Source: an uncultured Lachnospiraceae bacterium
Lineage (GTDB): Bacteria > Bacillota > Clostridia > Lachnospirales > Lachnospiraceae
Length of the DNA: 62,442 nt
Assembly: GCA_944381405.1 (NCBI GenBank)
Contig: CALWLA010000012.1
Location: 1-62,442 of the forward strand
Direction: 5' to 3'
Shown: positions 19,200 through 33,445 of the stretch, one piece after another
Layout: every line of letters begins with the position of its first letter
How positions within the stretch are numbered: position 1 is the first letter of the stretch
The notes under the pieces: generated by a model
Seen by the model: only the letters and a program-made list of their open reading frames with translations
Databases searched by the model: none
What the model was told of the DNA's origin: nothing
Made by a program: the position numbers and the translations under genes

Positions 19200-19205
19200 A
19201 AGCTT

Positions 19206-20360
19206 ATGGAGGTATATTTTGACAACGCCGCCACCACAAGGGTTGCCCCGGAGGTGGCGGAGCTTATGAGAAAGATCATGGAGGAGGACTATGGAAATCC
19301 TTCCTCCAGGCATGTGATGGGCATGCGGGCGGAAAACTATGTCAGGCATGCGGCGGAGCAGGTGGCGGCCACCCTCAAGGTTAAGCCTTCGGAGATCCTC
19401 TTTACCTCCGGCGGCACGGAATCCGACAACCTGGCCCTCATCGGCACTGCGCTCCGGAGACAAAAACGGGGCCGCCACATCATCAGCCTCGGCATCGAGC
19501 ATGCGGCCATTTACAAGACTCTGGAATTTCTGGAGGAGCAGGGCTTTCGGGTGACCTTCCTTCCGGTGGATGAAAAGGGTCATCCGGACCTTGGAGCCCT
19601 TGAGGCGGCCATCTGTCCGGATACCATCCTGGTCAGCATCATGTATGTGAACAACGAGATCGGCTCCATCGAGCCCATCGGAGAGATCGGCCGCATCGTC
19701 AAGGAGAAAAATCCGGAGTGCTATTTCCATACGGATGCCATCCAGGCCTATGGAAAGCTTACGATCCGCCCGAAAAAGGAGCGCATCGATCTTCTGTCCG
19801 TCAGCGGACACAAGCTCCACGGGCCCAAGGGCGTGGGATTTTTGTATATCGACGAGCATGTGCGGCTCCATCCCATCATTTTCGGCGGCGGCCAGCAGAA
19901 GGACATGCGCTCCGGAACGGAAAATGTGCCGGGTATCGCCGGCATGGGCCTTGCGGCGGAGCTTTACTACCGGGAGCATGAGAAAAAGACCGGGCAGCTG
20001 CTTCAGGTAAAGGACCGGCTCTTTGAGCGGCTTTCTGCCATGGAGGGGGTGCGAATCAATTCAGAACCGGGCAGCCTTTCTGCGCCTCAGATCTTAAGCG
20101 CCTCCTTTTCCGGCGTCCGGGCAGAGGTGCTGCTCCATGCCCTGGAGGAAAAGGGCGTATACGTTTCTTCCGGTTCCGCCTGCGCCTCCAATCATCCGGC
20201 GGTCAGCGGCACCCTGAAGGGCATCGGCCTGCCCAGGGAGCTTCTGGACAGCACCCTGCGTTTTTCCTTCGGCCTCTTCAATACGCCGGAGGAGGCGGAC
20301 TACTGCGCGGACTGCCTGGAGGAACTTTTGCCGGTGCTCCGGCGTTTCACCCGCCGTTAA
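19206..20360 (+). CDS. Cysteine desulfurase (NifS/IscS-like), probable sulfur donor for ThiI
   Basis: This PLP enzyme removes sulfur from cysteine as a protein persulfide. The 384-residue protein shows MEVYFDNAATT, TSGGTESDN, the PLP lysine in SGHKLHGPKG and the catalytic cysteine in SSGSACAS. In many Firmicutes a desulfurase of this type is adjacent to thiI and supplies sulfur for 4-thiouridine in tRNA; here thiI is 11.5 kb away with a catabolic locus in between. No iscU or other Fe-S scaffold gene is nearby, which favours the tRNA thiolation role, though other sulfur acceptors are possible. Confidence 0.93.
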   Translation: MEVYFDNAATTRVAPEVAELMRKIMEEDYGNPSSRHVMGMRAENYVRHAAEQVAATLKVKPSEILFTSGGTESDNLALIGTALRRQKRGRHIISLGIEHAAIYKTLEFLEEQGFRVTFLPVDEKGHPDLGALEAAICPDTILVSIMYVNNEIGSIEPIGEIGRIVKEKNPECYFHTDAIQAYGKLTIRPKKERIDLLSVSGHKLHGPKGVGFLYIDEHVRLHPIIFGGGQQKDMRSGTENVPGIAGMGLAAELYYREHEKKTGQLLQVKDRLFERLSAMEGVRINSEPGSLSAPQILSASFSGVRAEVLLHALEEKGVYVSSGSACASNHPAVSGTLKGIGLPRELLDSTLRFSFGLFNTPEEADYCADCLEELLPVLRRFTRR

Positions 20361-20386
20361 TGTTATGTTAAATGTATTATAATGTA

Positions 20387-20415
20387 TTGAAAAAACAAAT
20401 ATAATATGCTACAAT
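20387..20415 (+). promoter_or_regulatory. Promoter of the first SIS deglycase gene
   Basis: TTGAAA at 20387-20392 and TACAAT at 20410-20415 are separated by 17 bp, with an extended TGC before the -10 element. The -10 element overlaps the upstream arm of the terminator for the preceding gene. Confidence 0.8.
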
Positions 20416-20457: not shown

Positions 20458-20515
20458 GCCGGAGGTTCATCCATTTATCATCATTTATCTGGCCAAGGCC
20501 AAGGAGGAAAAGATC

Positions 20516-21511
20516 ATGCTGAATTTTGACGAGGCAAAGGTTCTCAAGGAGCATCAGAACGGAGTGGACATCATCCCGAAGGTAGAGGAGATCGTGGATC
20601 AGGTCTGCAAGGAAGGCTATTCCAACATCTTTTATGTAGGTATCGGCGGAACGGTGCTGTATGCAAACCAGATGCTGCACATCGCAAAGCAGCTGGGCTC
20701 CAAGCTTCCCCTGTATCTTGAGAACGCGGCAGATTTCTGCATCGTTGGCAATCCTTTCTTTGACAAAAATTCCGTTGTGGTGATCGAATCTGTTTCCGGC
20801 GACACCAAGGAAGTAGTAAAGGCGGTGGAAAAGGCCCATGAGGCGGGCGCAAGGGTCATCGGCTATGTGGAGACCCCGGGCACGCCCCTCTATGAGATGT
20901 GCGATCATCTGGTGACCACCGTTGGCGGCGGATATTATTTCTGGTATACCGTGACCCTTCGTTTCATGAAGAATGCGGGCATGTTCGACAAGTACGACAA
21001 GTTCTTCTCCGAGATCAAAAATATGCCGAAGAACGTGGTAGAGATCTACAAGGCCGCAGATGAGGATGCCAAGGCTTATGCGGAAAAATACTGCGACGAG
21101 CCCATCACCTATCTGGTAGGCTCCGGCAATCTGGAGGACTGGGCTACCTGCTATGGCATGTGCATCATGGAGGAGATGCAGTGGATGCGTACAAGACCGG
21201 TTTCCGCAGCAAACTTCTTCCACGGGACCCTTGAGGTCATCGAGCGGGATATCCCGGTGATCCTCATCAAGGGCGAGGATATGACCAGACCGGAAATGGA
21301 CCGGGTAGAGGCCTTTGTCAACAAGATCTCCGCAAAGGTGACCGTATTCGATACCAAGAAATTCAAGCTGGAAGGCATCAGCGACGAATTCAGAGGCATG
21401 CTGTCTCCCATCGTGATGCGTTCCGCATTCCAGAGAGTGAACGCTCATCTGGAGTACTGCAGAAGACATCCTCTGGCGATCAGAAGATATTACAGAAGAC
21501 TGGATTACTAA
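20516..21511 (+). CDS. SIS-domain sugar-amine deglycase, FrlB-like (copy 1)
   Basis: FrlB-type enzymes split 6-phosphofructosamines (for example fructoselysine 6-phosphate) into glucose 6-phosphate and the free amine. The 331-residue protein has two SIS folds: IFYVGIGGTVLYANQ with VVIESVSGDTKEVVKA in the first, and the AANFFHGTLEVI signature in the second, ending RRYYRRLDY. AAGGAGG at 20501-20507 fixes the ATG. It differs clearly from the two other SIS paralogues at 28.5 and 29.8 kb, which share MQWINS and FFHGPFEI-type motifs. It is the first gene of the locus, with its own promoter and terminator, so it is a single-gene unit. The exact substrate cannot be read from sequence. Confidence 0.85.
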   Translation: MLNFDEAKVLKEHQNGVDIIPKVEEIVDQVCKEGYSNIFYVGIGGTVLYANQMLHIAKQLGSKLPLYLENAADFCIVGNPFFDKNSVVVIESVSGDTKEVVKAVEKAHEAGARVIGYVETPGTPLYEMCDHLVTTVGGGYYFWYTVTLRFMKNAGMFDKYDKFFSEIKNMPKNVVEIYKAADEDAKAYAEKYCDEPITYLVGSGNLEDWATCYGMCIMEEMQWMRTRPVSAANFFHGTLEVIERDIPVILIKGEDMTRPEMDRVEAFVNKISAKVTVFDTKKFKLEGISDEFRGMLSPIVMRSAFQRVNAHLEYCRRHPLAIRRYYRRLDY

Positions 21512-21516
21512 CTCGG

Positions 21517-21542
21517 AAAAAGGGCAGTATGCCCTTTTTTCC
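21517..21542 (+). terminator. Terminator after SIS copy 1
   Basis: AAAGGGCA (21519-21526) and TGCCCTTTTTT (21530-21540) form a compact hairpin with a GTA loop and a six-T tail. Confidence 0.85.
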
Positions 21543-21574
21543 TTACAGGATATAAAAATACCTGGGATAACAGT

Positions 21575-21602
21575 TTGCGCCGGCCTGTAAATATGTTATA
21601 CT
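21575..21602 (+). promoter_or_regulatory. Promoter of the gntR-frlC unit
   Basis: TTGCGC at 21575-21580 and TATACT at 21597-21602 are 16 bp apart, with an extended TGT before the -10 element. Confidence 0.6.
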
Positions 21603-21612
21603 GAAGCCAAAA

Positions 21613-21628
21613 GATGTAATAATACATC
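21613..21628. promoter_or_regulatory. Candidate operator of the GntR regulator
   Basis: GATGTA at 21613-21618 and TACATC at 21623-21628 form a perfect inverted repeat with a 4-bp centre, located just downstream of the expected transcription start of gntR. This is the position expected for autoregulation by a HutC-type regulator. Confidence 0.5.
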
Positions 21629-21660
21629 CAGGGTTTTGTAAAGGTAGCAGGTATATCATC

Positions 21661-22413
21661 ATGGAAGAATTGTTAAAAAGACGGACAGACATCCCGCTGT
21701 ATCAGCAGCTGGCAGAAGAACTGAAGGAGCAGATCGCAAAAGGCGACATCAAGGAGAACGAACGGATCCTGACGGAGATGGAGCTTTCTGAAAAATACAA
21801 GATCAGCCGCATCACGGTGCGGAAGGCTCTGGAGCTTCTGGTAGACGAAGAGATCCTGACGAGGAAACGGGGCATCGGAACCTTTGTATCCGGAAAAAAA
21901 ATGCTGAGGAACATGAATCAGTTTATGGGATTTACGCAAAACTGCGAGCAGAACGGCCAGAAGCCAGGCACCAAGTTCCTTTCTGCAGAGATCCTGAAGG
22001 CAAAGCCCTCGGATCTGAAAAACCTGCAGCTGGGAGACGACGACCGGGTGATCTCCATCCGGCGCCTGCGCTACTGCGACGATATGCCGGTAATCATTGA
22101 AGAAAATCATTTCCCCAGAAAATACGCCTTCCTTCTGGCGGAGGATCTGAACGGCTCTCTCCATGAGATCCTGACGGCCCACGGGGTAAACCTGCGGGAG
22201 GGGATCAAAAAGCTTGGCGTCTGCCATGCCACCAGGGAAGAGGCGGCCCTTCTGGGAGTTGCGGAAAACGAGGCGTTGCTGTTTACAAAGGACACCACCT
22301 TTGATGAAAAGAACGAGCCGGTCTACTATGGAAAAAACATCATCAATCCGGAGCGTTATGAGTTCAGCATCGTAGCCAGCGGTTTCACCATGGGAGAAAG
22401 ACATGAAGCTTAA
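21661..22413 (+). CDS. GntR/HutC-family regulator (FrlR-like)
   Basis: The 250-residue protein has an N-terminal winged helix (about 10-75; IPLYQQLAEELKEQI, ISRITVRKALELLVDEEIL, KRGIGTFVSG) and a C-terminal UTRA effector domain (about 95-245). UTRA domains of this family bind small phosphosugars or amino sugars, which fits repression of the fructosamine genes relieved by a phosphorylated substrate; this is an inference. The start has only a weak GCAGG site. Its last 11 nt overlap the start of the frlC-like gene, so regulator and epimerase are coupled. B. subtilis and E. coli frl loci also have a GntR-type FrlR. Confidence 0.88.
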   Translation: MEELLKRRTDIPLYQQLAEELKEQIAKGDIKENERILTEMELSEKYKISRITVRKALELLVDEEILTRKRGIGTFVSGKKMLRNMNQFMGFTQNCEQNGQKPGTKFLSAEILKAKPSDLKNLQLGDDDRVISIRRLRYCDDMPVIIEENHFPRKYAFLLAEDLNGSLHEILTAHGVNLREGIKKLGVCHATREEAALLGVAENEALLFTKDTTFDEKNEPVYYGKNIINPERYEFSIVASGFTMGERHEA

Positions 22414-23239
22414 ACGAAATCAGATCGCGGTGATGAATATCCAGTACAAATATTTTCCCCTGAGCCGTTTCCTGGACGACGCTGTGGAAAACGGCGTGGA
22501 AAATATCGAGCTCTGGGGCGCCGCACCCCATTTCTATTTCCCGGAGATGAGCTTCCGGGAGATCCAGAACACCCGCCACGAGATCGAACGGCGGGGCCTT
22601 AAGCTCATTTGCCTGACGCCGGAGCAGTGCGTGTATCCGGTAAACCTGGCTTCGGAAAGCCGGGAGACCAGACGCCGGAGCCTGCGCTTTTTTGAAGACA
22701 GCATCCGGATTGCCGCAGAGCTTGGCACCAACAAGGTGCTGGTGACCACGGGAACCGGTTATTTTGACCAGAGCGACCGGCAGGAGGCTTGGAACCGGGC
22801 GGCGGAAAATCTCTACGCCCTAGGAGATGTGGCGGCCCATTACGGCGTTACACTGGCCCTGGAGGTGCTGCGGCGGGACGAGAGCAACCTGGTGTATGAC
22901 CTTGAGAGCCTGCGCCGGATGCTCTCTGAGCTTTCCCATAAGCAGATCGGGGGCATGATCGATACCATTCCCATGGCCCTGGCGGGAGAGAGCCCGAAGC
23001 AGTATCTGGATGCCCTTGGGGACCGGCTGGTGCACATCCATTTCATCGACGGCGCTCCCAGAGGCCATCTGGCCTGGGGAGACGGCGTCCTCGACATGCA
23101 GCAGTACCTGCAGGAGCTGGAGGCCTATGGCTATCAGAACTATCTGTCCCTGGAGATCACAGACGGCAGGTATTACATGGATCCCTCCGCTTCCGTCCGG
23201 CAGAGCATCGAAAGGCTGTTCGGAGCCATTTCCGAGTAA
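22403..23239 (+). CDS. Sugar phosphate isomerase/epimerase family protein, FrlC-like
   Basis: The 278-residue TIM-barrel protein resembles FrlC, which in E. coli interconverts fructoselysine and its 3-epimer psicoselysine. Metal-site residues can be placed in LALEVLRRDES (Glu), GGMIDTIPM (Asp), HIHFIDG (His) and LSLEITDG (Glu), the four-ligand pattern of AP-endonuclease-2-type epimerases. It overlaps gntR by 11 nt and is followed by a terminator, so it is expressed with the regulator rather than with the kinase. Other sugar epimerases of this fold cannot be excluded on sequence alone. Confidence 0.82.
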   Translation: MKLKRNQIAVMNIQYKYFPLSRFLDDAVENGVENIELWGAAPHFYFPEMSFREIQNTRHEIERRGLKLICLTPEQCVYPVNLASESRETRRRSLRFFEDSIRIAAELGTNKVLVTTGTGYFDQSDRQEAWNRAAENLYALGDVAAHYGVTLALEVLRRDESNLVYDLESLRRMLSELSHKQIGGMIDTIPMALAGESPKQYLDALGDRLVHIHFIDGAPRGHLAWGDGVLDMQQYLQELEAYGYQNYLSLEITDGRYYMDPSASVRQSIERLFGAISE

Positions 23240-23265
23240 AAACTGAACCAAAAGAAATCCTACGG

Positions 23266-23308
23266 GACAGCGGTTTGTTGAAAAAATCAACATCCGCTGT
23301 CTTTTTTG
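23266..23308 (+). terminator. Terminator after the frlC-like gene
   Basis: GACAGCGG at 23266-23273 pairs with CCGCTGTC at 23294-23301, with an inner TGTTGA/TCAACA stem, followed by six T. Confidence 0.9.
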
Positions 23309-23352
23309 TAAAATAAAATGTGGAAATTGGACAAAATTAACAAGATTCTGTA

Positions 23353-23381
23353 TTGATTTATTTTGCACATTATGTTATAAC
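23353..23381 (+). promoter_or_regulatory. Promoter of the frlD-like kinase and transporter unit
   Basis: TTGATT at 23353-23358 and TATAAC at 23376-23381 are 17 bp apart, with an extended TGT before the -10 element. The element also forms a 10-bp palindrome TGTTATAACA. Confidence 0.65.
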
Positions 23382-23437
23382 AATATGGAACAAAACGATA
23401 ACTGTTGTAAATTTTGCATCATGGGGAGGCGGTAAAG

Positions 23438-24367
23438 TTGATCAGAGTTCTGGGAATTGGAGATAACGTAGCGGATAAGTATCTGCACACGAAGACCATT
23501 TACCCTGGCGGAAACGCGCTGAACATCGCAGTCTTTGCAAAGATGTTCGGCACCGAGGCCGGATATCTCGGCACCTTTGGAGACGATGAGATCGGCAAGC
23601 ATGTTTACAGCGTCTGCCGGGAGCTGGGACTTGATCTTTCCCACTGCCGCCTGGAGATCGGCGAAAACGGCTGTGCCAGAGTGCATCTGGTGGACGGAGA
23701 CCGGGTGTTCCTGCAGGGCAACAAGGGCGGAATCTCCAGAACGAAGCCTCCGGTACTGACAGAACTGGATGAGGAATACATCGCAGGCTACGATCTGATC
23801 CATACCAGCGTCTACAGCTTTATGGAACAGGAGCTGCCGAAGATCCGCAGGGCCGGAAAATTCGTATCCATGGATTTTTCCAACCGCCTGGAGGACGCCT
23901 ACTTCCAGCAGTGCTGTCCCTACGTGGACTGTGCGGAGATCTCCTGCGGCGATATGCCGGAGGAGGAGATCCTGGAATGGATCCGGAAGATCACGGAGTA
24001 CGGCTGCAGGCATATCGTCATTGCCACCAGAGGCTCCAAGGGCTCCTTCGTCATGGTGGACGGCAAGACCTATGAGCAGTCCCCCTGCCTTATCAAGGCA
24101 AAGGACACCATGGGCGCGGGAGATTCCTTCATCACCTGCTTCCTGGTAAATTATCTGGAGGGCATCTCCTGGGCCACGGATTTCTCTGAGGCCTCCGGAA
24201 AGAGAGGGCTGACGGACGCAGCCTCCTACAAGGACATGCTGATCCGCACCTGCCTCTATAAGGCAGCGGTATTTTCCGCAAAGCAGTGCCAGCGGGACGG
24301 CTCCTTCGGATATGGCAAAGAAGTGGAGCTTACGGAGCGGGACAAAGAAGTGATGAAAACCGTTTGA
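23438..24367 (+). CDS. PfkB-family sugar kinase, FrlD-like (fructoselysine 6-kinase)
   Basis: It would phosphorylate the imported fructosamine at C6 to make the substrate of the SIS deglycases. The 309-residue protein has the PfkB N-terminal signature GGNALNIAVFAKMFG and the C-terminal AKDTMGAGDSF motif holding the catalytic Asp and anion hole. The probable start is TTG at 23438, with GGGGAGG at 23423-23429 placed 8 nt upstream; an ATG at 23414 precedes that site and is less likely. It is the only kinase in the locus, although three SIS deglycases are present. Confidence 0.85.
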   Translation: MIRVLGIGDNVADKYLHTKTIYPGGNALNIAVFAKMFGTEAGYLGTFGDDEIGKHVYSVCRELGLDLSHCRLEIGENGCARVHLVDGDRVFLQGNKGGISRTKPPVLTELDEEYIAGYDLIHTSVYSFMEQELPKIRRAGKFVSMDFSNRLEDAYFQQCCPYVDCAEISCGDMPEEEILEWIRKITEYGCRHIVIATRGSKGSFVMVDGKTYEQSPCLIKAKDTMGAGDSFITCFLVNYLEGISWATDFSEASGKRGLTDAASYKDMLIRTCLYKAAVFSAKQCQRDGSFGYGKEVELTERDKEVMKTV

Positions 24368-24384
24368 TATGACGGCGACAAAAG

Positions 24385-24494
24385 AAAGAAATACCCTTCG
24401 GGTATACCTCTATGTCGTGGAAGACACGACATAAATAAAGAAATACCCTTCGGGTATAACCTTTATGTCGTGAAGGACACGACAAAAATAAAGA
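24385..24494 (+). repeat. Tandem double-hairpin repeat in the transporter leader
   Basis: Two head-to-tail copies (from 24385 and from 24437, period 52 bp) share an identical first 22 bp and differ at a few later positions. Each copy forms two hairpins: ATACCC/GGGTAT with a TTC loop (24391-24405, 24443-24457), and TGTCGTG/CACGACA with a 5-nt loop (24412-24432, 24466-24484). Between hairpins the copies differ while pairing is kept. No T-run follows on the plus strand, so these look like RNA processing or stability elements rather than terminators. Confidence 0.8.
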
Positions 24495-24528
24495 AAGTGA
24501 GTGTAACAAACAAGAAAGGAGAAGTATT

Positions 24529-25917
24529 ATGAGGAAAAGAAGTTGGAAGAGACTGACGGCAGCGGTGCTGGCCAGCGTAATGGCCCTGTCCCTTGCAGCC
24601 TGCGGCGGCGGAGGAAGCGGCGAGACACAGGCAGCAGCTGAAGGAGAGACCCAGGCAGCTGGAGATACCGGTGCGGCAGACAGCGGAGAAGCCGCATCCG
24701 GAGATCAGATCACCATCAGCTTTATGCACAGATTCCCGGACGAGCCTTACAACAGCTTCATCAATGCAAAGCTGGCTGAGTATGAGGAGATGCATCCGGA
24801 GATCAAGTTCGACATCAACGCCACTGCAAACCAGGAGTACAAGGAGAAGATCAAAGTCGTAATGGGCGGCAACGAGAAGCCGGATATCTTCTTCAGCTGG
24901 GTAGGCGATTTCACCGAGCGTTTCATCAGAGAGAACCTGGTTCTTGATCTGACCCCCTATCTGGAGGAGGATCCGGAGTGGAAGGACTCCCTGATCGAAT
25001 CCCAGATCGCTCAGTACACCACCGATGACGGCATGGTTTATGGTATCCCCTTCCGTCTTGACTGCAAACTGTTCTTCTACAACACGAGAATCTTCGAGGA
25101 GAACGGACTTGAGGCTCCCACCACCTGGGACGAGCTCATGGACGTATGCGAAAAGCTGAAGGCAGCGGGCATCACCCCCATTTCCTTCGGTAACCAGGAG
25201 ACTTGGAGCGCATCCCACTACATCGGCACCCTGAACCAGATCTTTGTTCCGGACGATGTAAGAGCAAAGGACTATGATCCCACCTCCGGTGAGTTCACGG
25301 ATCCGGGCTATGTTGAGGCCCTTGAGTATTATCAGGCACTGCTTCCCTACATGACTGAGAACCCCAACGGCGTACAGCCGGATATGGGACGTACCATGTT
25401 CACCATGGAGCAGTCCGCAATGTATTTCGCAGAGCTGATCGAGATCCCCTACATGCAGGCGGATAACCCGAACCTGGAGTATGGTATGTTCAAGTTCCCG
25501 GAGGTTGAGGGCGCACCTGGCAACCAGGAGATCCTTACCGGCGCACCGGAAGGCTTTGTTATCTGCTCTGAGACCGAGCATCCCGAGGAGTGCGTAGAGT
25601 TCCTGAAGTGGTTCCTTGGACCGGAAGTTGGTAAAGAGCAGATCCAGGAGATCGGCTGGTTCAACGCAGCAAAGGGCACGACCGACGGCGTTACGGATCA
25701 GGCGCTGCTGGATGGCTATGACACCATCATGAACGCCACCGCTATGGGTCCCTGGCTTGACAACGCTCTGTACTCCACCGTATGCGACGAGTATCTGACC
25801 GCTGTATCCGACCTGACCAACGGCGATGTAACGCCTGAGGAGGCTATGGCAAGGATCCAGGCAAAGGCAAAGGAAGCCCAGACCCTTGTTGCAACCGGTG
25901 CAACTGAGGAAGAATAA
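24529..25917 (+). CDS. ABC transporter solute-binding lipoprotein (FrlO-like)
   Basis: The 462-residue protein has a signal peptide ending in the lipobox LAAC (Cys near residue 24), a Gly/Thr/Ala/Glu linker, and a family-1 extracellular sugar-binding fold (from about residue 62; MHRFPDEPYNS, QEYKEKIKVVMGGNEKPDIFFSW). A GAAAGGAG site precedes the ATG. It follows frlD after 161 nt of paired-hairpin leader and is followed by two permease genes, the B. subtilis frlONM order. Its codon use (GTT, GTA, GGT frequent) differs from GC-rich neighbours and resembles highly expressed genes. The ligand is inferred from context to be a fructosamine. Confidence 0.88.
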   Translation: MRKRSWKRLTAAVLASVMALSLAACGGGGSGETQAAAEGETQAAGDTGAADSGEAASGDQITISFMHRFPDEPYNSFINAKLAEYEEMHPEIKFDINATANQEYKEKIKVVMGGNEKPDIFFSWVGDFTERFIRENLVLDLTPYLEEDPEWKDSLIESQIAQYTTDDGMVYGIPFRLDCKLFFYNTRIFEENGLEAPTTWDELMDVCEKLKAAGITPISFGNQETWSASHYIGTLNQIFVPDDVRAKDYDPTSGEFTDPGYVEALEYYQALLPYMTENPNGVQPDMGRTMFTMEQSAMYFAELIEIPYMQADNPNLEYGMFKFPEVEGAPGNQEILTGAPEGFVICSETEHPEECVEFLKWFLGPEVGKEQIQEIGWFNAAKGTTDGVTDQALLDGYDTIMNATAMGPWLDNALYSTVCDEYLTAVSDLTNGDVTPEEAMARIQAKAKEAQTLVATGATEEE

Positions 25918-25959
25918 GCATAAAGCATAAGCTTCCGCTGAAAGACAGTAATCATTTGC

Positions 25960-25984
25960 GGGCAGGTATCGCGTATACCTGCCC
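25960..25984 (+). promoter_or_regulatory. Hairpin between binding protein and permease genes
   Basis: A perfect 10-bp stem (GGGCAGGTAT at 25960-25969 with ATACCTGCCC at 25975-25984) without a real T-run. Such hairpins after binding-protein genes usually protect the upstream mRNA and lower permease expression. Confidence 0.65.
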
Positions 25985-26007
25985 CCTTTCATAAAGGCGG
26001 TGAGACG

Positions 26008-26880
26008 ATGAAAACAAAGAAAAGAACACCTTATTTCTACATGCTGCCGGGTGTACTGATGGTACTTCTGTTCGTCTATATCCCGGTGCTGACAAACATT
26101 GTATACAGCTTTTTCAGACTGTCGTCTTATTCGGCCGGGCAGACCTTTGTGGGACTGGACAATTACCGCAGATTCTTTACGGATCCGGTCTTCCCGATCA
26201 TGCTGAAAAACAACATCCTTTACTGCGTGATCTCCCTGATCGTGCAGGTTGGATTCGGAACCTTCCTGGCCCTGGTGCTGGACAGCACCCTGATCAAGGG
26301 AAAGGCCAAGAATTTCTTCCGGAACCTCTACTACATGCCTGCGCTGATCTCTCTGACGGCGGTAGGTCTCATGTTTACATTCATCTATGAGCCCAATATC
26401 GGTTTCCTGAACAAGGTGCTGGAGATCTTCGGCCTGGAGGGACATTCCTGGCTGGGCGATTCCAAGCTGGCGATCTTTTCCATCATCGCCATGAGCCAGT
26501 GGCAGTTTACCGGTTATATCACCCTGCTGATGGTAGTGGCCTTCCAGAATGTGTCCCAGGATTACATCGAGGCGGCCAAGATCGACGGCGCGGGACCGGT
26601 GAAGCGGGCCCTGACCATCATGCTGCCCCTTGCAAAGGAACAGCTTCTGGTATGTACGATCATCACCGTTATCGGCGCATTCAAGCTGTATACGGAGGTA
26701 TATGCCACCACAAGCGGCGGACCTGGAAACAGCTCTCAGGTTCTCGGCGTATTCCTGTACCAGCAGGCCTTCCTGCATGACGACCTGGGTATGGCGGCAG
26801 TTACCGGCGTATTCATCTTCGTTGTAACGGTGGCCCTTTCCATTCTCCAGATCCGTATCACCAGATCCGGTGAGATTTAA
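26008..26880 (+). CDS. ABC transporter permease, MalF type (FrlN-like)
   Basis: The 290-residue inner-membrane protein has six predicted membrane segments (the first about 10-30) and the cytoplasmic EAA loop (YIEAAKIDGAGPVKR, about 190-205) that docks the ATPase. It lies 90 nt after the binding-protein gene and 14 nt before the second permease. Family: binding-protein-dependent carbohydrate permeases. No ATPase gene is present in the locus, as for several Firmicutes sugar importers that share one multitask ATPase encoded elsewhere. Confidence 0.92.
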   Translation: MKTKKRTPYFYMLPGVLMVLLFVYIPVLTNIVYSFFRLSSYSAGQTFVGLDNYRRFFTDPVFPIMLKNNILYCVISLIVQVGFGTFLALVLDSTLIKGKAKNFFRNLYYMPALISLTAVGLMFTFIYEPNIGFLNKVLEIFGLEGHSWLGDSKLAIFSIIAMSQWQFTGYITLLMVVAFQNVSQDYIEAAKIDGAGPVKRALTIMLPLAKEQLLVCTIITVIGAFKLYTEVYATTSGGPGNSSQVLGVFLYQQAFLHDDLGMAAVTGVFIFVVTVALSILQIRITRSGEI

Positions 26881-26894
26881 GGGGAGGTGAGATT

Positions 26895-27719
26895 ATGGCT
26901 AAAAGATCAGTCTGCAAATTTTTTGCATATGCCCTTTGTATTCTTCTCAGCATCATCATTCTGCTTCCGCTGGGATGGATCATTCTGAACTCCCTGAAGA
27001 CGAACCCGGAAATGTTCATGGATTCCCTGGCGCTGCCGGAGTCCGTTCAGTTCGTGAACTATGTGAACGCATGGAACAAGGGCCTTTATCAGTACTTCGG
27101 AAACTCCGTATTTGTCAGCGCAGTTTCCCTGATCATGATCCTGACCCTGTCCTCCCTTCTGGCCTATGGTATCACCAGATTCCGGGCCAAGGGAAGCACC
27201 TTGATCTTCCTGATCGTCCTTGGCGGTATGGCTCTTTCCGAGCAGGTGGCGCTGGTGCCCCTTTTTAAGATCCTGAACGCCACCGGACTTTACAACACCT
27301 ATGCGGCGGTCATCCTGCCCTACATCGCCTTCCGTATCCCGTTTACCGTATTCCTGATGCGGTCCTACTTCATCAGCATTCCTACGGAGCTGGAGGAGGC
27401 GGCCATCGTGGACGGCTATAACAGCCTGCAGATCTTCCTGAAGATCATCATTCCCATCAGTAAGCCGATCTTTGCGGCCTGCGCCATTGTCAATCTGAAC
27501 TTTGTATGGAACGAGTTCCTGTTTGCAAACGTGTTCCTGAATGACAAGACCCTGCAGACGATCCCCATCGGTCTGATGACCTTCAAGGGCGACCTGAGAA
27601 CGGATTATACCACGACGCTGGCAGGTCTTGTGATCGCATCCCTGCCGCTGATCATCCTGTTCTTCTGCATGTCCAAGCAGTTCGTAAAGGGCTTGACGGC
27701 AGGTGCAGTCAAGGGATAA
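26895..27719 (+). CDS. ABC transporter permease, MalG type (FrlM-like)
   Basis: The 274-residue membrane protein pairs with the preceding permease. Six hydrophobic segments are visible, and the EAA loop reads ELEEAAIVDGYNSLQIF (about 170-190). GGGGAGGTGAG lies upstream of the ATG. It ends the transporter unit and is followed by a GC-rich hairpin at 27742-27766. The set binding protein-MalF-MalG without ATPase agrees with B. subtilis FrlONM. Confidence 0.92.
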   Translation: MAKRSVCKFFAYALCILLSIIILLPLGWIILNSLKTNPEMFMDSLALPESVQFVNYVNAWNKGLYQYFGNSVFVSAVSLIMILTLSSLLAYGITRFRAKGSTLIFLIVLGGMALSEQVALVPLFKILNATGLYNTYAAVILPYIAFRIPFTVFLMRSYFISIPTELEEAAIVDGYNSLQIFLKIIIPISKPIFAACAIVNLNFVWNEFLFANVFLNDKTLQTIPIGLMTFKGDLRTDYTTTLAGLVIASLPLIILFFCMSKQFVKGLTAGAVKG

Positions 27720-27741
27720 TCTGTAACAGAAGGATTTTATG

Positions 27742-27770
27742 GGAAGACCCGGAAGCCGGGTCTTCCTTCT
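27742..27770 (+). terminator. Hairpin after the second permease
   Basis: GGAAGACCCGG at 27742-27752 pairs with CCGGGTCTTCC at 27756-27766, followed by TTCTTTCC. The T-run is interrupted, so read-through into the HAD gene is possible. Confidence 0.65.
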
Positions 27771-27802
27771 TTCCGGAGAAAACCAGAAAAAGGAGAGCTG
27801 CC

Positions 27803-28450
27803 ATGCGGAAAAAAGCGTTGATATTCGATATGGACGGAGTGATCATCGACAGCGAGGGGATCCATCTGCGGGCCCTGTATGAGTTCCTCAGATCCTTAAA
27901 GCCGGAACTACGGCTGGAGGAGCTGTATCAGGTGGTGGGACGCAGCCGGGAGGATGTCTGGAGCAGGATCCAGAGGGCGGTGGAAACGGACCTTCCCTGG
28001 GAGGAACTGCACCGCATCTATAAGGAAGAGTGGACCCCGGTCCACCCCAAGGAGCTGGATTACCGGTCAATCTACCGGCCGGAAACCGGGGAGATGCTGG
28101 CCCGGGCAAGAGCCGCGGGGCTTCGGACTGCCGTGGCCTCCTCCACCAAATATGAGGTGGTGATGGAGGTGATGCGGGAGGTGGGCATCGACAGCCAGCT
28201 GGATCTGGTGATGAGCGGAGAGTTCTTTGCCCGCAGCAAACCGGACCCGGCGATCTATCTGAAGACCTGCGAGATGCTTTCGGTGTCTCCTGCGGACTGT
28301 CTGGTGATCGAGGATTCCACCGTGGGGATCCGGGCGGCCCATGACGCCGGCGCGGAGGTGGCGGCGCTGATCGACGACCGCTACGGCTTCGACCGGAGGC
28401 TTGCGGATCACGAGATCAGCCGGATCTCCGAGCTGTGGCAGTACCTGTAA
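27803..28450 (+). CDS. HAD-family phosphatase/phosphomutase (beta-phosphoglucomutase type)
   Basis: The 215-residue protein has HAD motif I FDMDGVIIDSE (nucleophile Asp9, acid/base Asp11), motif II Thr/Ser in VASSTK, motif III Lys in SKPDPAIYL, and motif IV VIEDSTVGIRAA. A C1-type helical cap lies between motifs I and II. The cap and the DGV(I)IDSE signature resemble beta-phosphoglucomutase and small sugar phosphatases; the substrate cannot be fixed. AAAAGGAG precedes the ATG. Placed after the transporter, it may act on a sugar phosphate produced in the fructosamine pathway. Confidence 0.85.
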   Translation: MRKKALIFDMDGVIIDSEGIHLRALYEFLRSLKPELRLEELYQVVGRSREDVWSRIQRAVETDLPWEELHRIYKEEWTPVHPKELDYRSIYRPETGEMLARARAAGLRTAVASSTKYEVVMEVMREVGIDSQLDLVMSGEFFARSKPDPAIYLKTCEMLSVSPADCLVIEDSTVGIRAAHDAGAEVAALIDDRYGFDRRLADHEISRISELWQYL

Positions 28451-28482
28451 AAAGACCCGGCCGCTTAAGCGGCCGGGTCTTT
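28451..28482. terminator. Bidirectional terminator between convergent genes
   Basis: A long stem AAAGACCCGGCCGC (28451-28464) pairs with GCGGCCGGGTCTTT (28469-28482) around a TTAA loop. A/T flanks on both sides let it serve the HAD gene and the convergent SIS gene. Confidence 0.85.
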
Positions 28483-28542
28483 GATTCCATAGGTGCGCCC
28501 TGGTCCCAGGGGCCAGGGGAGCTGCTGCTCCTTTGCCAAAGA

Positions 28543-29505
28543 TTAGTATGCGAACTTCCACATATATCTTCTGACGCTTAAGGGATGATTTCTCACATCT
28601 GCCAGAAGATTGTTGAAGACGCGAATCACGTTGGTGTGGAAGAAAGCGTCCAGATACTCGGACAGCTCTCCCAGCTCGTCCATGCCGTAATCCTTGGGGT
28701 CGATGACCATGATGCGGTCGTTGAACTTGTGCATGAAAGCAAGGGCTCTGTCATCCAGCTCTCTGGTGCGTCCGGTGGACTTCATCATCAGGAAAGCGGT
28801 GTTCTTGTCCGTGATCTCGAAGGGACCGTGGAAGTATTCGCCGGAATGGATGACGCTGGAGTTGATCCACTGCATTTCCATGAAGATGCAGATGGCTTCC
28901 TGATGAGCGCTGCCCCAGGCAGAACCGCTGCCCATGGTGTAGATCACCTTATCATCCTTGAACTCCCAGGCATACTTGATGGCATAGGGAACCAGCTCCG
29001 TCTTTGCCCGGTCGATGATGCCGTTCAGCTTTGTAAGAGCGGCGATCATATCCTCGTAATGCGCATAGCCTTCGATGCGGTTCAGGAATTCCAGCGCCAG
29101 CTTCATGGCATAGGAGGACTTCTGATTCTCTACAGCGGAGTCGTCTCCGAACTCATAGTGAATGACATACTCTGCAGCCTCGGAAAGGGGTGACGGAACC
29201 TCGAAGGTCAGGCCGATGGTGGAAGCGCCAAGCTTTCTTGCTACCTTGCAGGCCTCTACGGTCTCGGGGGTGTTGCCCCGCTGGGAAGCCACGATCACGA
29301 CGCAGCTCTCGTTGACCTCCTTCGGCGTGGTGTGTACGAACTCGTTGGAATTCATGTATCCGGTACGGATCTCCTTTGCCTCGCAGTTCAGGAAATACTT
29401 GGCGGGGAAGAAGCCTACCAGGGAGCCGCCGCAGCCTACGAAATAGACGGTTTTCACCGGTCCCTTTTCCAGAATGGAATCAACGATTTCCTTTACAACC
29501 TTCAT
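28543..29505 (-). CDS. SIS-domain sugar-amine deglycase, FrlB-like (copy 2)
   Basis: The 320-residue protein has two SIS domains: VYFVGCGGSLVGFFPAKYF and the phosphosugar loop VIVASQRGNTPETV in the first, and MEMQWINSSV with GEYFHGPFEIT in the second, ending RRYMWKFAY. It is much closer to copy 3 than to copy 1. AAAGGAGG precedes the ATG on the minus strand. It is transcribed leftward from its own promoter, divergent from copy 3, into the shared terminator with the HAD gene. Expected activity is cleavage of a phosphorylated fructosamine; which amine is unknown. Confidence 0.85.
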   Translation of the reverse strand: MKVVKEIVDSILEKGPVKTVYFVGCGGSLVGFFPAKYFLNCEAKEIRTGYMNSNEFVHTTPKEVNESCVVIVASQRGNTPETVEACKVARKLGASTIGLTFEVPSPLSEAAEYVIHYEFGDDSAVENQKSSYAMKLALEFLNRIEGYAHYEDMIAALTKLNGIIDRAKTELVPYAIKYAWEFKDDKVIYTMGSGSAWGSAHQEAICIFMEMQWINSSVIHSGEYFHGPFEITDKNTAFLMMKSTGRTRELDDRALAFMHKFNDRIMVIDPKDYGMDELGELSEYLDAFFHTNVIRVFNNLLADVRNHPLSVRRYMWKFAY

Positions 29506-29533
29506 TTGAATTTGCCTCCTTTGGATTGTGTTG

Positions 29534-29559
29534 TATTGAAATGTACTATAGCTTCAATA
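29534..29559. promoter_or_regulatory. Inverted repeat at the copy-2 promoter
   Basis: TATTGAA at 29534-29540 and TTCAATA at 29553-29559 form perfect 7-bp arms 12 bp apart, overlapping the -10 element and start region of the leftward promoter: a candidate operator. Confidence 0.5.
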
Positions 29560-29584
29560 TAAGCCACCTGGGGTAAAAAGTCAA
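29556..29584 (-). promoter_or_regulatory. Promoter of SIS copy 2
   Basis: On the minus strand, TTGACT (29584-29579) and TATATT (29561-29556) are 17 bp apart. Confidence 0.75.
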
Positions 29585-29632
29585 TTGTTTCTTTAAGGAA
29601 AATACAAACTGCTTTCCGAGCCTGGAAAGCGA

Positions 29633-29661
29633 TTGACAAAAGTTCATATTTGTATTATATT
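29633..29661 (+). promoter_or_regulatory. Promoter of SIS copy 3
   Basis: TTGACA at 29633-29638 and TATATT at 29656-29661 are 17 bp apart. The two divergent -35 elements lie about 50 bp apart. Confidence 0.8.
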
Positions 29662-29750
29662 GTCTTATAGATAAAAGCCTTGCAAAAGGCTTTATGAAAT
29701 AAAGAAGAACTACAGCAATCTCATCATATTTTTCAGGAGGACAATCTATT

Positions 29751-30719
29751 ATGGAACCGAAACAGATCATTGAAGCCATTAAGAAAGAAAGACCGGAGAT
29801 CAAGAGCGTCTACTTTGTAGGCTGCGGCGCATCCAAGGCTGAGCTTTATCCCGGCAAATATTTCCTGGATGAAAACGCAAAGGTGCTCCGTACCGGCCAC
29901 TACAGCGCCAACGAATTCCTGCATGCCACACCGGCAGCGGTGGATCAGACGGCCATTGTCATCACCTGCTCTCTGGGCGGAACCACTCCCGAGACGGTAG
30001 CGGCTTCCAAAAAGGCCATGGAGCTGGGTGCAAAGGTCATCGCAGTGACCCACGCAGCGGATTCACCTCTGGCAAAAAATGCCCACTATGTGATCGTACA
30101 CGGCTTTGAGGCCAATTATGCGGCAAAGCTGGAAAAGATGACCAACGTGCTGATGCTGGCAGTAGAGATCCTGAATCAGTATGAGGGCTACGATCATTAT
30201 GAAGAGATGCAGCAGGGCTTTGCAAAGATCTACGGGCTCATCGAGCAGGCGGTTTCCTTTGTGGTACCGGCAGCCCAGCAGTTTGCCCAGGACTATAAGG
30301 ACGCTCCGGTGATCTATGTTATGAGCTCCGGCGCGACCCAAGAGGTGGCATATGCCTTCTCCATCTGCCTGCTGATGGAGATGCAGTGGATCAACTCCGG
30401 TTCCTTCCACGACGGCGAGTTCTTCCATGGTCCCTTCGAGATCGTGGACAAGGGCGTTCCCTTCATCCTGCTGATGAACGAGGGAAGGACCAGAGCTCTG
30501 GACAGCCGCGCCCTGGATTTCCTGAACCGCTTCGATGCCAAGACCACCGTTGTGGATGGCAAGGATTTCGGCGTAGGTTCTGAGATCCCCGCAGCAGTCT
30601 GCGAGTATTTCAATCCCATGGTGCTGACCGCAGTGCTCAGAGTCTATGCAGAGCAGCTGGCCATCGTTCGCTGCCATCCGCTGACCATGAGACGCTATAT
30701 GTGGAAGCTGGAGTATTAA
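29751..30719 (+). CDS. SIS-domain sugar-amine deglycase, FrlB-like (copy 3)
   Basis: The 322-residue protein has two SIS domains: VYFVGCGASKAELYPGKYF and VITCSLGGTTPETVAA in the first, MEMQWINSGSFHDGEFFHG in the second, ending RRYMWKLEY. It is a diverged paralogue of copy 2 and shares its overall architecture. TTCAGGAGG lies before the ATG. It is a rightward single-gene unit. The phosphosugar loop SLGGTTPET differs from SQRGNTPET of copy 2, which suggests a different substrate preference rather than redundancy. Confidence 0.85.
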   Translation: MEPKQIIEAIKKERPEIKSVYFVGCGASKAELYPGKYFLDENAKVLRTGHYSANEFLHATPAAVDQTAIVITCSLGGTTPETVAASKKAMELGAKVIAVTHAADSPLAKNAHYVIVHGFEANYAAKLEKMTNVLMLAVEILNQYEGYDHYEEMQQGFAKIYGLIEQAVSFVVPAAQQFAQDYKDAPVIYVMSSGATQEVAYAFSICLLMEMQWINSGSFHDGEFFHGPFEIVDKGVPFILLMNEGRTRALDSRALDFLNRFDAKTTVVDGKDFGVGSEIPAAVCEYFNPMVLTAVLRVYAEQLAIVRCHPLTMRRYMWKLEY

Positions 30720-30819
30720 ACCAGATCAAAACAGGCGTGCAGTGCTGAAAATTTAGAACAAGGCCTGCAGGACTGAAACCTGCAGCCGGATATTGACGGA
30801 TGTACTGAAGGGGGACTTT

Positions 30820-30850
30820 GGGCCGGGACAGAAGAGTCCCGGCCCATTTT
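30820..30850 (+). terminator. Hairpin between SIS copy 3 and the yitT-like gene
   Basis: GGGCCGGGAC at 30820-30829 pairs with GTCCCGGCCC at 30836-30845, followed by ATTTTG. The stem ends only 15 nt before the next ATG. Confidence 0.65.
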
Positions 30851-30860
30851 GACGAAAAAG

Positions 30861-31742
30861 ATGAAAAAACAGATTTATCATGAAGCAGGGCATATTTTCC
30901 AGTCGCTTTTCGGGGTGTTGCTGTTTGCAGCGGCCTACCGGCTGTTCATCGTGCCCCAGGGGCTTTACAGCGGCGGCTTTACGGGAATCGCCCAGCTGAT
31001 CAAGCTTTTTCTGGAGTGGGCCTTCCACTTTGACCCTGCGGGAGTGGACCTGACAGGCGTGATCTTCTGGTGCCTGAACGTTCCGATCCTGCTGTTTTCC
31101 TACCGGGGGCTTGGGCGGGGATTTTTCCTGCGGACCATCCTCTGCGTATGCGTTCAGTCGGTGCTGATGGCACTGATCCCCACTCCGAAGGAGATGATCC
31201 TGTCGGATCCTCTGCTGAACAGCATCGTGGGCGGAGCCATCTCCGGCTTCGGCGTGGGAACGACCCTGCGGGCAGGAGGCTCCGGCGGAGGAAACGACGT
31301 GGTGGGCATGTACTGCGCCAAGATGCATCCGGGCTACAGCGTAGGAAAGATCAGCAACGCCATCAACGCCTTTATCTATGTGTTTGCAGCGGTGATGAAC
31401 GACATCGACGTGGCGGCCTATTCCATGCTGTTTTCCGCTGCGGCAAGCCTTGTGATGGACCGGGTGCATACCCAGAATCTGAAGGTGAGCCTCCTGGTGA
31501 TCTCCAAAAAGCCGGAGCTTGGAAAGCGGCTTACGGAGGCCATGCACCGGGGCGTTACCAGCTGGCACGGCGTGGGGGAGTATACGGGAGAGCAGACCTT
31601 CATCAGCTTTGTGGTGGTGGATCAGTACGAGCTTTACCGCCTGAAACGGCTGATCAGGGAGCTGGATGAGCACGCCTTTTCCACGGTGCTTTCTCCCAGG
31701 GAGGTGCTGGGGAATTTTCAAAAGAGGCTGGAAGTATCTTGA
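30861..31742 (+). CDS. YitT family membrane protein (DUF161/DUF2179)
   Basis: The 293-residue protein has five or six membrane segments (first about 13-30) with the glycine-rich ISGFGVGTTLRAGGSGGGNDVVG motif region of the YitT family, and a soluble C-terminal DUF2179 domain (about 205-290). The family has no agreed function; a transport or signalling role is suspected. No Shine-Dalgarno site is visible before the ATG at 30861, nor before a TTG at 30849; a strong hairpin occupies that position instead. It is the last gene before thiI. Confidence 0.85.
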   Translation: MKKQIYHEAGHIFQSLFGVLLFAAAYRLFIVPQGLYSGGFTGIAQLIKLFLEWAFHFDPAGVDLTGVIFWCLNVPILLFSYRGLGRGFFLRTILCVCVQSVLMALIPTPKEMILSDPLLNSIVGGAISGFGVGTTLRAGGSGGGNDVVGMYCAKMHPGYSVGKISNAINAFIYVFAAVMNDIDVAAYSMLFSAAASLVMDRVHTQNLKVSLLVISKKPELGKRLTEAMHRGVTSWHGVGEYTGEQTFISFVVVDQYELYRLKRLIRELDEHAFSTVLSPREVLGNFQKRLEVS

Positions 31743-31825
31743 CAAATGGCTGCAATTAAGCAAAAATGAATGGAAATGCTGAAAGAAAGGACCGGAGCAT
31801 TCCGGCAGCCAAAGAGGAGATACAC

Positions 31826-33007
31826 ATGGAGTATCAGAGTTTTTTGATCAAATATGCGGAGATCGGCACCAAGGGAAAGAACCGTTATATCTTTGAGGAC
31901 GCCCTGATGCAGCAGATCCGGCTGCACCTGGAAAAGGTGGAGGGCTCCTTTGCCATTCAGAAGGAGCAGGGCCGCATCTACGTCAACGCAAAAACCGAAT
32001 ATGATTTCGACGAAACCATCGGAGCCCTGACAAAGGTCTTCGGCGTAACGGGCATCTGCCCCATGATGCAGATGGAAAAATGCGGCTTTGAGGAGCTGCG
32101 GGAAAAGGTGCTGGCCTTTGTGAAGCGGGAGCATCCGGAGGGAGGCTTTTCCTTCAAGGTCCGGGCAAAGCGGGCGGACAAGCACTATCCCGTCACCTCG
32201 GACGAGATCAACGCGGAGGTGGGCCACGATATCCTGGAGGCCTTCCCGGATTCCCATGTGGATGTGCATGACCCGGATTTCATCGTGTACATCGAGATCC
32301 GCCAGCATGTGAACGTGTATACCAGGACCATCAAAGGAGCCGGCGGTATGCCCATCGGCACCAACGGAAAGGCTATGCTGCTGCTGTCCGGCGGCATCGA
32401 CAGCCCGGTGGCAGGCTATATGATCGCCAAAAGAGGCGTCCGGCTGGAGGCGGTCTATTTCCATGCGCCGCCATATACCTCGGAGCGGGCAAAGCAGAAG
32501 GTGGTGGACCTGGCAAAGCAGGTAGCCCAGTATGCGGGCCCCATCCGTCTGCATGTGATCAATTTTACCGAGATCCAGCTTTATATCTATGAGCAGTGTC
32601 CCCATGACGAGCTGACCATCATCATGCGCCGGTACATGATGCGCATTGCGGAGCGGCTTTCCGAGGCCTGCGACTGCATCGGCCTGATCACAGGGGAATC
32701 CATCGGACAGGTGGCCTCCCAGACCATGTTCTCCCTGCGCACCACCGACGAGGTCTGCCAGCTTCCGGTCTACCGGCCGGTGATCGGCTTTGACAAGCAG
32801 GAGATCGTGGATCTTGCGGAAAAGATCGGAACATACGAAACCAGCATCCTTCCCTATGAGGACTGCTGCACCATCTTTGTGGCAAAGCACCCCGTTACAA
32901 AGCCCAATGTAAAATCCATCAAAAAATCGGAAACAAAGCTTGCGGAAAAGATCGAAGAAATGGTGGATACGGCTGTCCGGACGGAAGAAGTGATCTGGTG
33001 CAGCTGA
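31826..33007 (+). CDS. thiI: tRNA 4-thiouridine synthase ThiI
   Basis: It adenylates U8 of tRNA and installs sulfur to give 4-thiouridine. The 393-residue protein has an N-terminal ferredoxin-like region, a THUMP domain (about 60-165) and the PP-loop ATPase motif LLSGGIDSPVAGYM (near residue 192). The C-terminal rhodanese domain of E. coli ThiI is absent, as in Bacillus, where the desulfurase hands sulfur over directly. AGAGGAGA at 31813-31820 fixes the ATG. Its expected partner, the cysteine desulfurase, is at 19.2-20.4 kb. Confidence 0.96.
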   Translation: MEYQSFLIKYAEIGTKGKNRYIFEDALMQQIRLHLEKVEGSFAIQKEQGRIYVNAKTEYDFDETIGALTKVFGVTGICPMMQMEKCGFEELREKVLAFVKREHPEGGFSFKVRAKRADKHYPVTSDEINAEVGHDILEAFPDSHVDVHDPDFIVYIEIRQHVNVYTRTIKGAGGMPIGTNGKAMLLLSGGIDSPVAGYMIAKRGVRLEAVYFHAPPYTSERAKQKVVDLAKQVAQYAGPIRLHVINFTEIQLYIYEQCPHDELTIIMRRYMMRIAERLSEACDCIGLITGESIGQVASQTMFSLRTTDEVCQLPVYRPVIGFDKQEIVDLAEKIGTYETSILPYEDCCTIFVAKHPVTKPNVKSIKKSETKLAEKIEEMVDTAVRTEEVIWCS

Positions 33008-33417: not shown

Positions 33418-33445
33418 GAATGAATACCTCCTCTTTATAAAACAA

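Follow-up and report, generated by a model that had tools for sequence, protein, structure and literature searches.

We report that a gene cluster in a 62,442-nucleotide stretch of DNA from an uncultured Lachnospiraceae bacterium (contig CALWLA010000012.1; the whole stretch is called the window below) carries three SIS genes, SIS1, SIS2 and SIS3, whose predicted products are FrlB-like fructosamine-6-phosphate deglycases of three separate branches, beside a single FrlD/FraD-like kinase gene. The cluster lies between a NifS-type gene and thiI, in the order SIS1, GntR/UTRA regulator, FrlC-like epimerase, FrlD/FraD-like kinase, solute-binding protein, two permeases, HAD-family protein, SIS2, SIS3 and YitT-family protein. 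Glycated amino acids (fructosamines, or Amadori products) from heated food reach the gut. We think that the cluster probably encodes an inducible pathway for such compounds, in which a broad kinase would be served by deglycases of complementary specificity.

Three FrlB-like deglycases fall into separate branches

The genes SIS1 (20516..21511, plus strand), SIS2 (28543..29505, minus strand) and SIS3 (29751..30719, plus strand) are each a complete, intact open reading frame (ORF); for SIS1, ATG at 20516 is a possible start, and the ORF list begins at TTG 20456. Their phosphosugar loops, SVSGDTKEV in SIS1, SQRGNTPET in SIS2 and SLGGTTPET in SIS3, are those named by a sequence-only reading of this DNA, which had proposed three distinct FrlB-like proteins with the second and third copies related and the first more distant, without describing the minus-strand position of SIS2. 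The comparisons agree with that proposal: SIS2 and SIS3 share 45% identity, vs 29% over 267 residues for SIS1 and SIS3 and 23% for SIS1 and SIS2. The best NCBIfam match of all three is the fructoselysine-6-phosphate deglycase model NF008481 (90, 108 and 102 bits for SIS1, SIS2 and SIS3), an equivalog of the E. coli-type FrlB whose cut-off of 430 is reached by none of them. All three are related over their full length to characterised members of the FrlB/FraB/GfrF deglycases (SIS proteins of ~320-350 residues), and by these scores we regard them as FrlB-like, not as FrlB proper.

A maximum-likelihood tree of 102 rows (89 SIS ORFs from other loci, 10 references and the 3 window proteins) placed the three proteins apart; the loci had yielded 127 SIS ORFs, of which 12 repeated window or reference sequences and were excluded, and a filter at 88% identity then took out 26 of the other 115. 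SIS2, which is 49% identical both to PDB 3FKJ (which we take to be Salmonella STM0572) and to FraB, joins 3FKJ (100/86) and then FraB (98/82). SIS3 belongs to a 14-row clade (100/100) with an Enterococcus faecium plasmid protein encoded next to a mannose-family phosphotransferase system (PTS) (L094), to which it is 64% identical, and it reaches 86-87% identity to two Enterocloster records. SIS2 and SIS3 are 45-49% identical to FraB, and PDB 9OU6 is 98% identical to the chromosomal FraB of a Salmonella fra locus. SIS1 sits in a 13-row clade (100/100) within a 71-row branch (100/100) that also contains GfrF of Salmonella (37% identical to SIS1) and its positional counterpart from E. faecium (41%). 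The top PDB match of SIS1, 2A3N, shares 99% identity with the product of the final gene in a Salmonella regulator-PTS-SIS-SIS operon; this is the gfr arrangement described in the available text of PMC12675984, and the record itself does not carry the name gfr. E. coli FrlB is only 23-28% identical to the three proteins, and the tree places of E. coli FrlB and of GfrE are unsure because of their very long branches.

Thus, the tree comparison with characterised enzymes for which the sequence-only reading had asked gave no common grouping with one activity, and neither NagB nor GlmS was the best family for any of the three. Copies of one activity were therefore ruled out by the three branches, as were two NagB/GlmS relatives by the best family match, FrlB, of each protein. 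Residues E214 (numbered as in the 325-residue form of FraB) and H230, the latter presumably the catalytic histidine of FraB, are kept in the alignment of SIS1, SIS2 and SIS3. In the available text of PMC12755824, the FraB variant E214A is described as catalytically inactive.

Aside from these genes, an E. faecium plasmid (L095, 2755-3372) holds a truncated SIS1-like piece (67% over 205 residues) adjoining an IS1216 transposase. Plasmid records with a best match of 60-80% numbered seven.

Recurrence of the SIS1 and SIS3 pair and its place in the genome

The genes were followed in L011-L090, the 80 best of 494 confirmed loci when ordered by their likeness to SIS1. This sample is not random, and the ORF and tblastn tables include every one of its loci. 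Taking at least 60% identity as the mark of a SIS1-clade gene and at least 50% identity to the window kinase (P0004) as that of a close kinase, we found SIS1-clade genes in 16 of the 80 loci, accompanied by a SIS3-clade gene in 11, by a close P0004-type kinase in 11 and by a YitT gene, adjoining SIS3 or SIS1, in 7. The remaining 64 loci gave no SIS3-clade or YitT match. Fisher values for the SIS3 and YitT associations were 4e-10 and 4e-6, which overstate the evidence because the sequences are related. Among the five SIS1-clade loci lacking SIS3, two stop near the gene (L020, L021), two are full stretches (L018, L025) and one has SIS1 in two pieces; in this last, from a Clostridium clostridioforme strain (L066, 10001-10860), the gene appears as two tblastn pieces with no full ORF, beside kinase and importer matches.

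Within the stretches examined, exactly one kinase accompanies the pair in 8 of the 11 SIS1 and SIS3 loci, two in L013 and none in L011 and L016. A third SIS gene is absent from the stretch in 10 of the 11, that of L019 lying just beyond and several stretches being short. More broadly, the 56 loci of at least 20 kb held one deglycase and one kinase ORF in 41 cases, two and one in 7, one and none in 4, three and one in 3 and two and two in 1. The three-and-one loci belong to Neobacillus (L064, L079) and Bacillus (L075), and the clostridial three-SIS cases are L016, with no kinase on its contig, and the genome of L019, where three SIS matches and two kinase matches fall in a span of 14 kb. A Collinsella aerofaciens locus (L149, 3611-11948) combines an epimerase and a mannose-family PTS with three SIS genes, one 28% identical to GfrE and two GfrF-like ones that are 93% identical to each other. 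The uniqueness implied by the sequence-only reading did not hold up, given the pair in 11 of 16 SIS1-clade loci and the three-SIS loci of Neobacillus, Bacillus, two clostridia and, with a PTS, Collinsella. The window locus, with both genes, a kinase and an importer in one place, belongs to this clostridial module, of which the conserved core most likely comprises SIS1, SIS3, kinase, regulator and importer, often with YitT, SIS2 being an addition.

Several deglycase genes in one genome were found in few relatives. In a class sample of 291 genomes searched with SIS3, with at most seven candidates scored in many genomes, 7 had a match at E <1e-25 and only the window's genome had more than one. 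Among 61 relatives searched with SIS2 (E up to 1e-20), 12 had a match, with four in G000 (the window's genome), three in G057 and two in G006; the three of G057, from another genus of the same order, are FrlB-like and lie far apart on their contig. Of 25 genomes of the genus, 9 have FrlB/GfrF-like genes (E up to 1e-15), and only the window's genome (four) and G006 (two) have more than one. Thirteen chosen genomes gave 47 deglycase-like vs 30 kinase-like matches, an excess that is only suggestive, as the queries and thresholds were unlike, one fragment was counted and PTS routes were ignored.

The genes that flank the cluster, and that we place outside the system, encode a NifS/IscS-type cysteine desulfurase (19206..20360, plus strand; Pfam Aminotran_5, named by reading) and ThiI (31766..33007, plus strand). 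Of 22 congeners that have a thiI match, 18 carry NifS no more than ~180 bases away, and three others yielded no NifS gene in the stretch examined. In the window, this junction is interrupted by the whole cluster (20360-31766), which looks like an insertion because the two genes adjoin in 18 of 22 congeners. In G006, the genome with the closest ThiI (92%), a SIS1 gene (75%) stands alone between NifS and ThiI (L135, 7375-10909), a state that could reflect either loss of the rest of the cluster or its stepwise arrival; as the one FrlD-like match found in that genome belongs to another locus, deglycases of the GfrF type need not have a kinase gene beside them. The cluster has a GC content of 0.51-0.55 vs 0.58-0.61 in the preceding 8 kb, which is poor evidence of foreign origin because the window shows comparable dips at 48-50 kb and 52-54 kb as well.

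Kinases, transport and candidate regulatory sites

The sequence-only reading spoke of one kinase and one transporter. The locus does hold one kinase gene (and one regulator), while the 2.0-Mb genome as a whole has three FrlD-like kinases and four FrlB-like deglycases, so that two of the kinases and one of the deglycases are encoded elsewhere. The local kinase P0004 (23414..24367, plus strand), a FrlD/FraD-like member of the PfkB family, is 40% identical to Salmonella FraD, 36% to the kinase of contig C1, 32% to E. coli FrlD and 29% to that of contig C19, and so is closest to FraD within this set of four, outside which B. subtilis FrlD lies. Its best NCBIfam match is NF007321 (fructoselysine 6-kinase), whose cut-off of 247 is missed by P0004 (173 bits) and the C1 kinase (206) and passed by the C19 kinase.

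A genome search with SIS2 found FrlB-like genes on contigs C12 and C1 only, a GlmS-sized frame on C38 being a separate weak match. The C1 locus (L096, G000:C1:84000-101000, 4350-11158) is a second complete frl-type locus, with a GntR regulator, a PHP-type (HisJ family) phosphatase, a kinase, an importer and the fourth deglycase, which is B. subtilis FrlB-like and 51% identical to 3EUA, presumably B. subtilis FrlB itself. The C19 locus (L097, G000:C19:22000-38000, 25-10159) has a GntR gene, an Opp/Dpp/Nik-type ABC transporter, an M20 dipeptidase that passes the Sapep-family cut-off and the FrlD-like kinase; its binding protein passes no NCBIfam cut-off, and this contig gave no FrlB-like match in the genome search. 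By its gene content, the C19 locus may possibly serve the import and use of glycated peptides, relying on a deglycase encoded elsewhere. The C19 kinase has no close match in 24 congeners (best 39%).

As to the transporter, one solute-binding lipoprotein (24529..25917; Pfam SBP_bac_1) and two permeases (26008..26880 and 26895..27719; both Pfam BPD_transp_1), all on the plus strand, form an ABC importer, and no ABC ATPase is present among the ten locus proteins scanned against NCBIfam and Pfam. A genome search that covered only ABC ATPases with a MalK OB domain found one such gene, on C25; this would be in keeping with B. subtilis FrlONM, for which the available text of PMC12632257 reports a shared ATPase.

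The other genes of the cluster, all on the plus strand, encode the GntR/UTRA-family regulator (21661..22413; Pfam GntR and UTRA), the FrlC-like 3-epimerase P0003, a xylose-isomerase-like TIM barrel (22403..23239; best NCBIfam match NF007360, 139 bits, below the cut-off of 305), a HAD-family sugar-phosphate phosphatase or phosphomutase (27803..28450; TIGR02009, beta-phosphoglucomutase family, 105 bits, below the cut-off of 153) and, directly downstream of SIS3, a YitT-family membrane protein with DUF2179 (30849..31742; Pfam). FrlR of Bacillus subtilis is likewise a GntR-family regulator. The gap between the kinase and solute-binding protein genes contains two tandem units of ~53 bases (24381-24496), with two short hairpins in each.

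Promoter-like sites precede SIS1 (TTGAAA-17-TACAAT, 20387..20415, plus strand), SIS2 (TTGACT-17-TATATT, 29556..29584, minus strand) and SIS3 (TTGACA-17-TATATT, 29633..29661, plus strand), the region holding 15 such sites vs 9.0 +/- 2.8 in shuffles. An operator shuffle test over eight intergenic regions of the window pointed to AT-rich palindromic operator-like sites upstream of SIS1 (20357..20393; region score reached by 1/200 and 0/200 dinucleotide shuffles) and to one upstream of the kinase (23364..23383; 9/200 and 10/200). Over the whole window, the motif built from all loci scored at least 9 at five positions, four of them preceding either SIS1 (with three overlapping) or the kinase, and the fifth at 56801. 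Relatives, too, have a palindromic AT-rich motif upstream of their SIS1, SIS3 and kinase genes: when it was learned from one half of 13 relative loci and scored on the remaining half, with the 95th percentile of dinucleotide shuffles as the value to exceed, it passed in 16 of 29 regions upstream of these genes (8/12 and 8/17) vs 6 of 33 other regions (3/15 and 3/18). No Rfam model matched at the gathering threshold in 19000-33500, and a known RNA element as regulator was dropped for want of such a match. By eye, a nine-base inverted repeat followed by six T (20412-20457) resembles an intrinsic terminator and overlaps the SIS1 promoter-like site; it is omitted from a terminator list with a loop limit of 8, and it could halt transcription coming from nifS, not that from the start of SIS1 itself.

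Proposed pathway, its alternatives and known systems

We propose that the ABC importer would take up several fructosamines, powered by a shared MalK/MsmX-type ATPase encoded elsewhere, that the FrlC-like epimerase would recover C3 epimers and that the FraD/FrlD-like kinase would phosphorylate C6 of more than one fructosamine. The deglycases would then split the products, releasing the amino acid and glucose 6-phosphate, and each would handle a share of what the kinase makes, with SIS1 acting on epsilon-linked fructoselysine-like substrates and SIS2 and SIS3 on alpha-linked ones, and the YitT-family protein might transport the freed amino acid. All the substrates, the breadth of the kinase, the alpha/epsilon split, the sharing of an ATPase and the role of YitT are what we infer from sequence and gene neighbourhood. 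Toxic 6-phosphofructose-aspartate accumulates in some fraB mutants according to the available text of PMC12755824. By analogy, since a fructosamine 6-phosphate that is made and left unsplit is toxic, every product of the kinase would have to be split, which might make extra deglycases useful.

The predicted split draws on the tree and on a residue test that sought columns separating alpha references (FraB, B. subtilis FrlB) from epsilon references (GfrF, E. coli FrlB). The B. subtilis enzymes FrlB and FrlD act on alpha-glycated amino acids in the available text of PMC12632257, and the text of PMC12675984 gives Salmonella GfrF as a fructoselysine-6-phosphate deglycase, with a figure legend that contradicts it on GfrE and GfrF. 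At the six columns that fit the split, SIS2 and SIS3 are each alpha-like at four, epsilon-like at none and neither at two, and SIS1 is epsilon-like at three, alpha-like at one and neither at two. The two most suggestive columns, chosen after viewing, are F or L beside the HGP motif (239 in the 331-residue FraB, 233 in the 325-residue form) and M or Y in the C-terminal tail (326 or 320 in FraB). The epsilon-fructoselysine-like substrate predicted for SIS1 and the alpha-fructosamines predicted for SIS2 and SIS3 follow from these comparisons.

Several observations weigh against this proposal. The residue test is weak and its column count not telling, because the other two pairings of the four references fit five and three columns. 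SIS1 is only 37-41% identical to GfrF-type proteins, and its clade lacks about ten loop residues and has N in the (G)EFFHG motif where most others have E, so that its substrate may differ. Specificities of deglycases may also overlap, because a Salmonella gfrF mutant retains some growth on fructoselysine in the available text of PMC12675984. As for common control, the operator motif is good for SIS1 and modest for the kinase in the window and inconsistent in the SIS2-SIS3 region (3/200 and 31/200 shuffles reach the score), and its centres differ between the training halves (ATAT vs ACGT); given these centres, the resemblance to a -10 element and the palindrome imposed by the method, it may partly reflect promoters. 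Moreover, a search of G006 with the C19 kinase (E up to 1e-15) gave a single FrlD-like match, the kinase encoded in the C1-type locus of that genome, and the deglycases of the window may partly serve other kinases because the genome has two further FrlD-like ones.

This last point leads to the alternative that the deglycases serve several kinases of the genome, SIS1 mainly splitting fructoselysine 6-phosphate made by the C19 kinase and SIS2 and SIS3 the products of the local one. The C19 kinase does exceed the NCBI fructoselysine 6-kinase cut-off (252.9 vs 247 bits) and adjoins an oligopeptide-type transporter and a dipeptidase, the FrlB-like genes of the genome search are confined to C12 and C1, and SIS1 belongs to the GfrF branch; however, a kinase sharing at least 50% identity with P0004 is present in 11 of 16 SIS1-clade loci, and G006 has SIS1 with no close C19-type kinase (best match 30%), and we consider this alternative unlikely. 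Less likely still, the locus might hold really two activities, SIS2 being an addition or dosage copy that shares an alpha-fructosamine 6-phosphate job with SIS3. Their 45% identity and equal scores in the residue test, the opposite strand and own promoter-like site of SIS2 and the third SIS gene in just two of the 11 SIS1 and SIS3 loci (L016 and the L019 genome, several other stretches being short) would suit such accretion, but SIS2 groups with 3FKJ and FraB and not with SIS3, and is therefore no recent duplicate of it.

The remaining two alternatives concern the substrates. One of the three proteins could handle Heyns compounds (glucosyl-amines, e.g., glucoselysine 6-phosphate) as Salmonella GfrE does, the gfr operon dividing such labour between two SIS proteins, with GfrE handling glucoselysine 6-phosphate (available text of PMC12675984). 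Yet, Salmonella GfrE is a very long tree branch, 23% identical to SIS2 over 234 residues with SIS1 and SIS3 not among its 12 best rows, and the positional counterpart of GfrE in E. faecium is 22-26% identical to SIS2 and SIS3 over 179-265 residues and aligns with SIS1 over 17; we think this very improbable. Finally, SIS1 might act on another phosphorylated amino sugar and be no fructosamine deglycase, as its shortened loop, its E-to-N change and the full stretches of L018 and L025, which have a SIS1-clade gene without SIS3, close kinase or YitT, might suggest. That SIS1 keeps the catalytic pair, has GfrF as its nearest characterised relative and is often paired with SIS3 and a FrlD-like kinase leaves this scarcely credible. 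The pathway of one broad kinase with complementary deglycases is thus the one that we retain. A more specific version is doubtful: a clostridial module in which one broad kinase would be matched by two (here three) alpha/epsilon-complementary deglycases under one operator, with the extra ones as insurance against toxicity, YitT moving the amino acid and a further supply made by the C19 kinase from imported glycated peptides.

Surveys of bacterial users of glycated amino acids look for kinase and deglycase genes (available text of PMC4697335 and PMC9749803). Should it be the deglycases, behind broad kinases, that determine which compounds can be used, counts of one deglycase per pathway would misjudge the degradation capacity of bacteria. 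The recurring SIS1 and SIS3 pair, in which two subfamilies of deglycases accompany one kinase, lends itself to direct testing, and such side-by-side enzymes could help to find the determinants of alpha vs epsilon specificity, whose basis is treated as unresolved in the available text of a 2022 FraB/FrlB inhibitor paper (PMC9609667). A limited literature search did not find three deglycases with one kinase described, and work on fructose-asparagine users may cover related clostridial loci.

Among known systems, Salmonella gfrABCDEF resembles the window locus in having two or more SIS deglycases for a single transport system, SIS1 being of the GfrF type, and its two deglycases, as given in the available text of PMC12675984, count against the uniqueness implied by the sequence-only reading. 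In contrast to gfr with its PTS, the window has an ABC importer, a separate kinase and two FraB/FrlB-type deglycases in addition; neither a GfrE-type gene nor a PTS occurs among the ten locus proteins scanned, and the locus is not a two-deglycase system of the GfrEF type. The Salmonella fra (fructose-asparagine) system resembles it in the kinase, nearest to FraD, and in the relation of FraB to SIS2 and SIS3, but has one deglycase, a C4-dicarboxylate-type transporter and an asparaginase, the latter two not being among the locus proteins scanned. B. subtilis frlBONMD-frlP likewise combines an ABC importer with a shareable ATPase, a FrlD kinase, a FrlB deglycase and the regulator FrlR (available text of PMC12632257); it differs in that its operon includes an ATPase gene and has a single deglycase, and its closer counterpart in this genome is the C1 locus. 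E. coli frlABCDR (fructoselysine) has a FrlC-like epimerase and a FrlD-like kinase in common with the window, but a single deglycase, distant from all three of the window, and the permease FrlA. For Intestinimonas AF211, likened here by description and not by sequence, the available text of PMC4697335 proposes an ABC transporter, a kinase and a deglycase together for fructoselysine, with one deglycase named. The nearest likeness is found in the clostridial SIS1 and SIS3 loci (L012, L014, L015, L017, L022, L023, L024 and others), which share the pair, the regulator, the kinase, the importer and often YitT, whereas 10 of 11 have no third SIS in the stretch and some lack FrlC or HAD. Altogether, the locus looks like an unusual version of the known fra/frl/gfr pathway and not like a new pathway.

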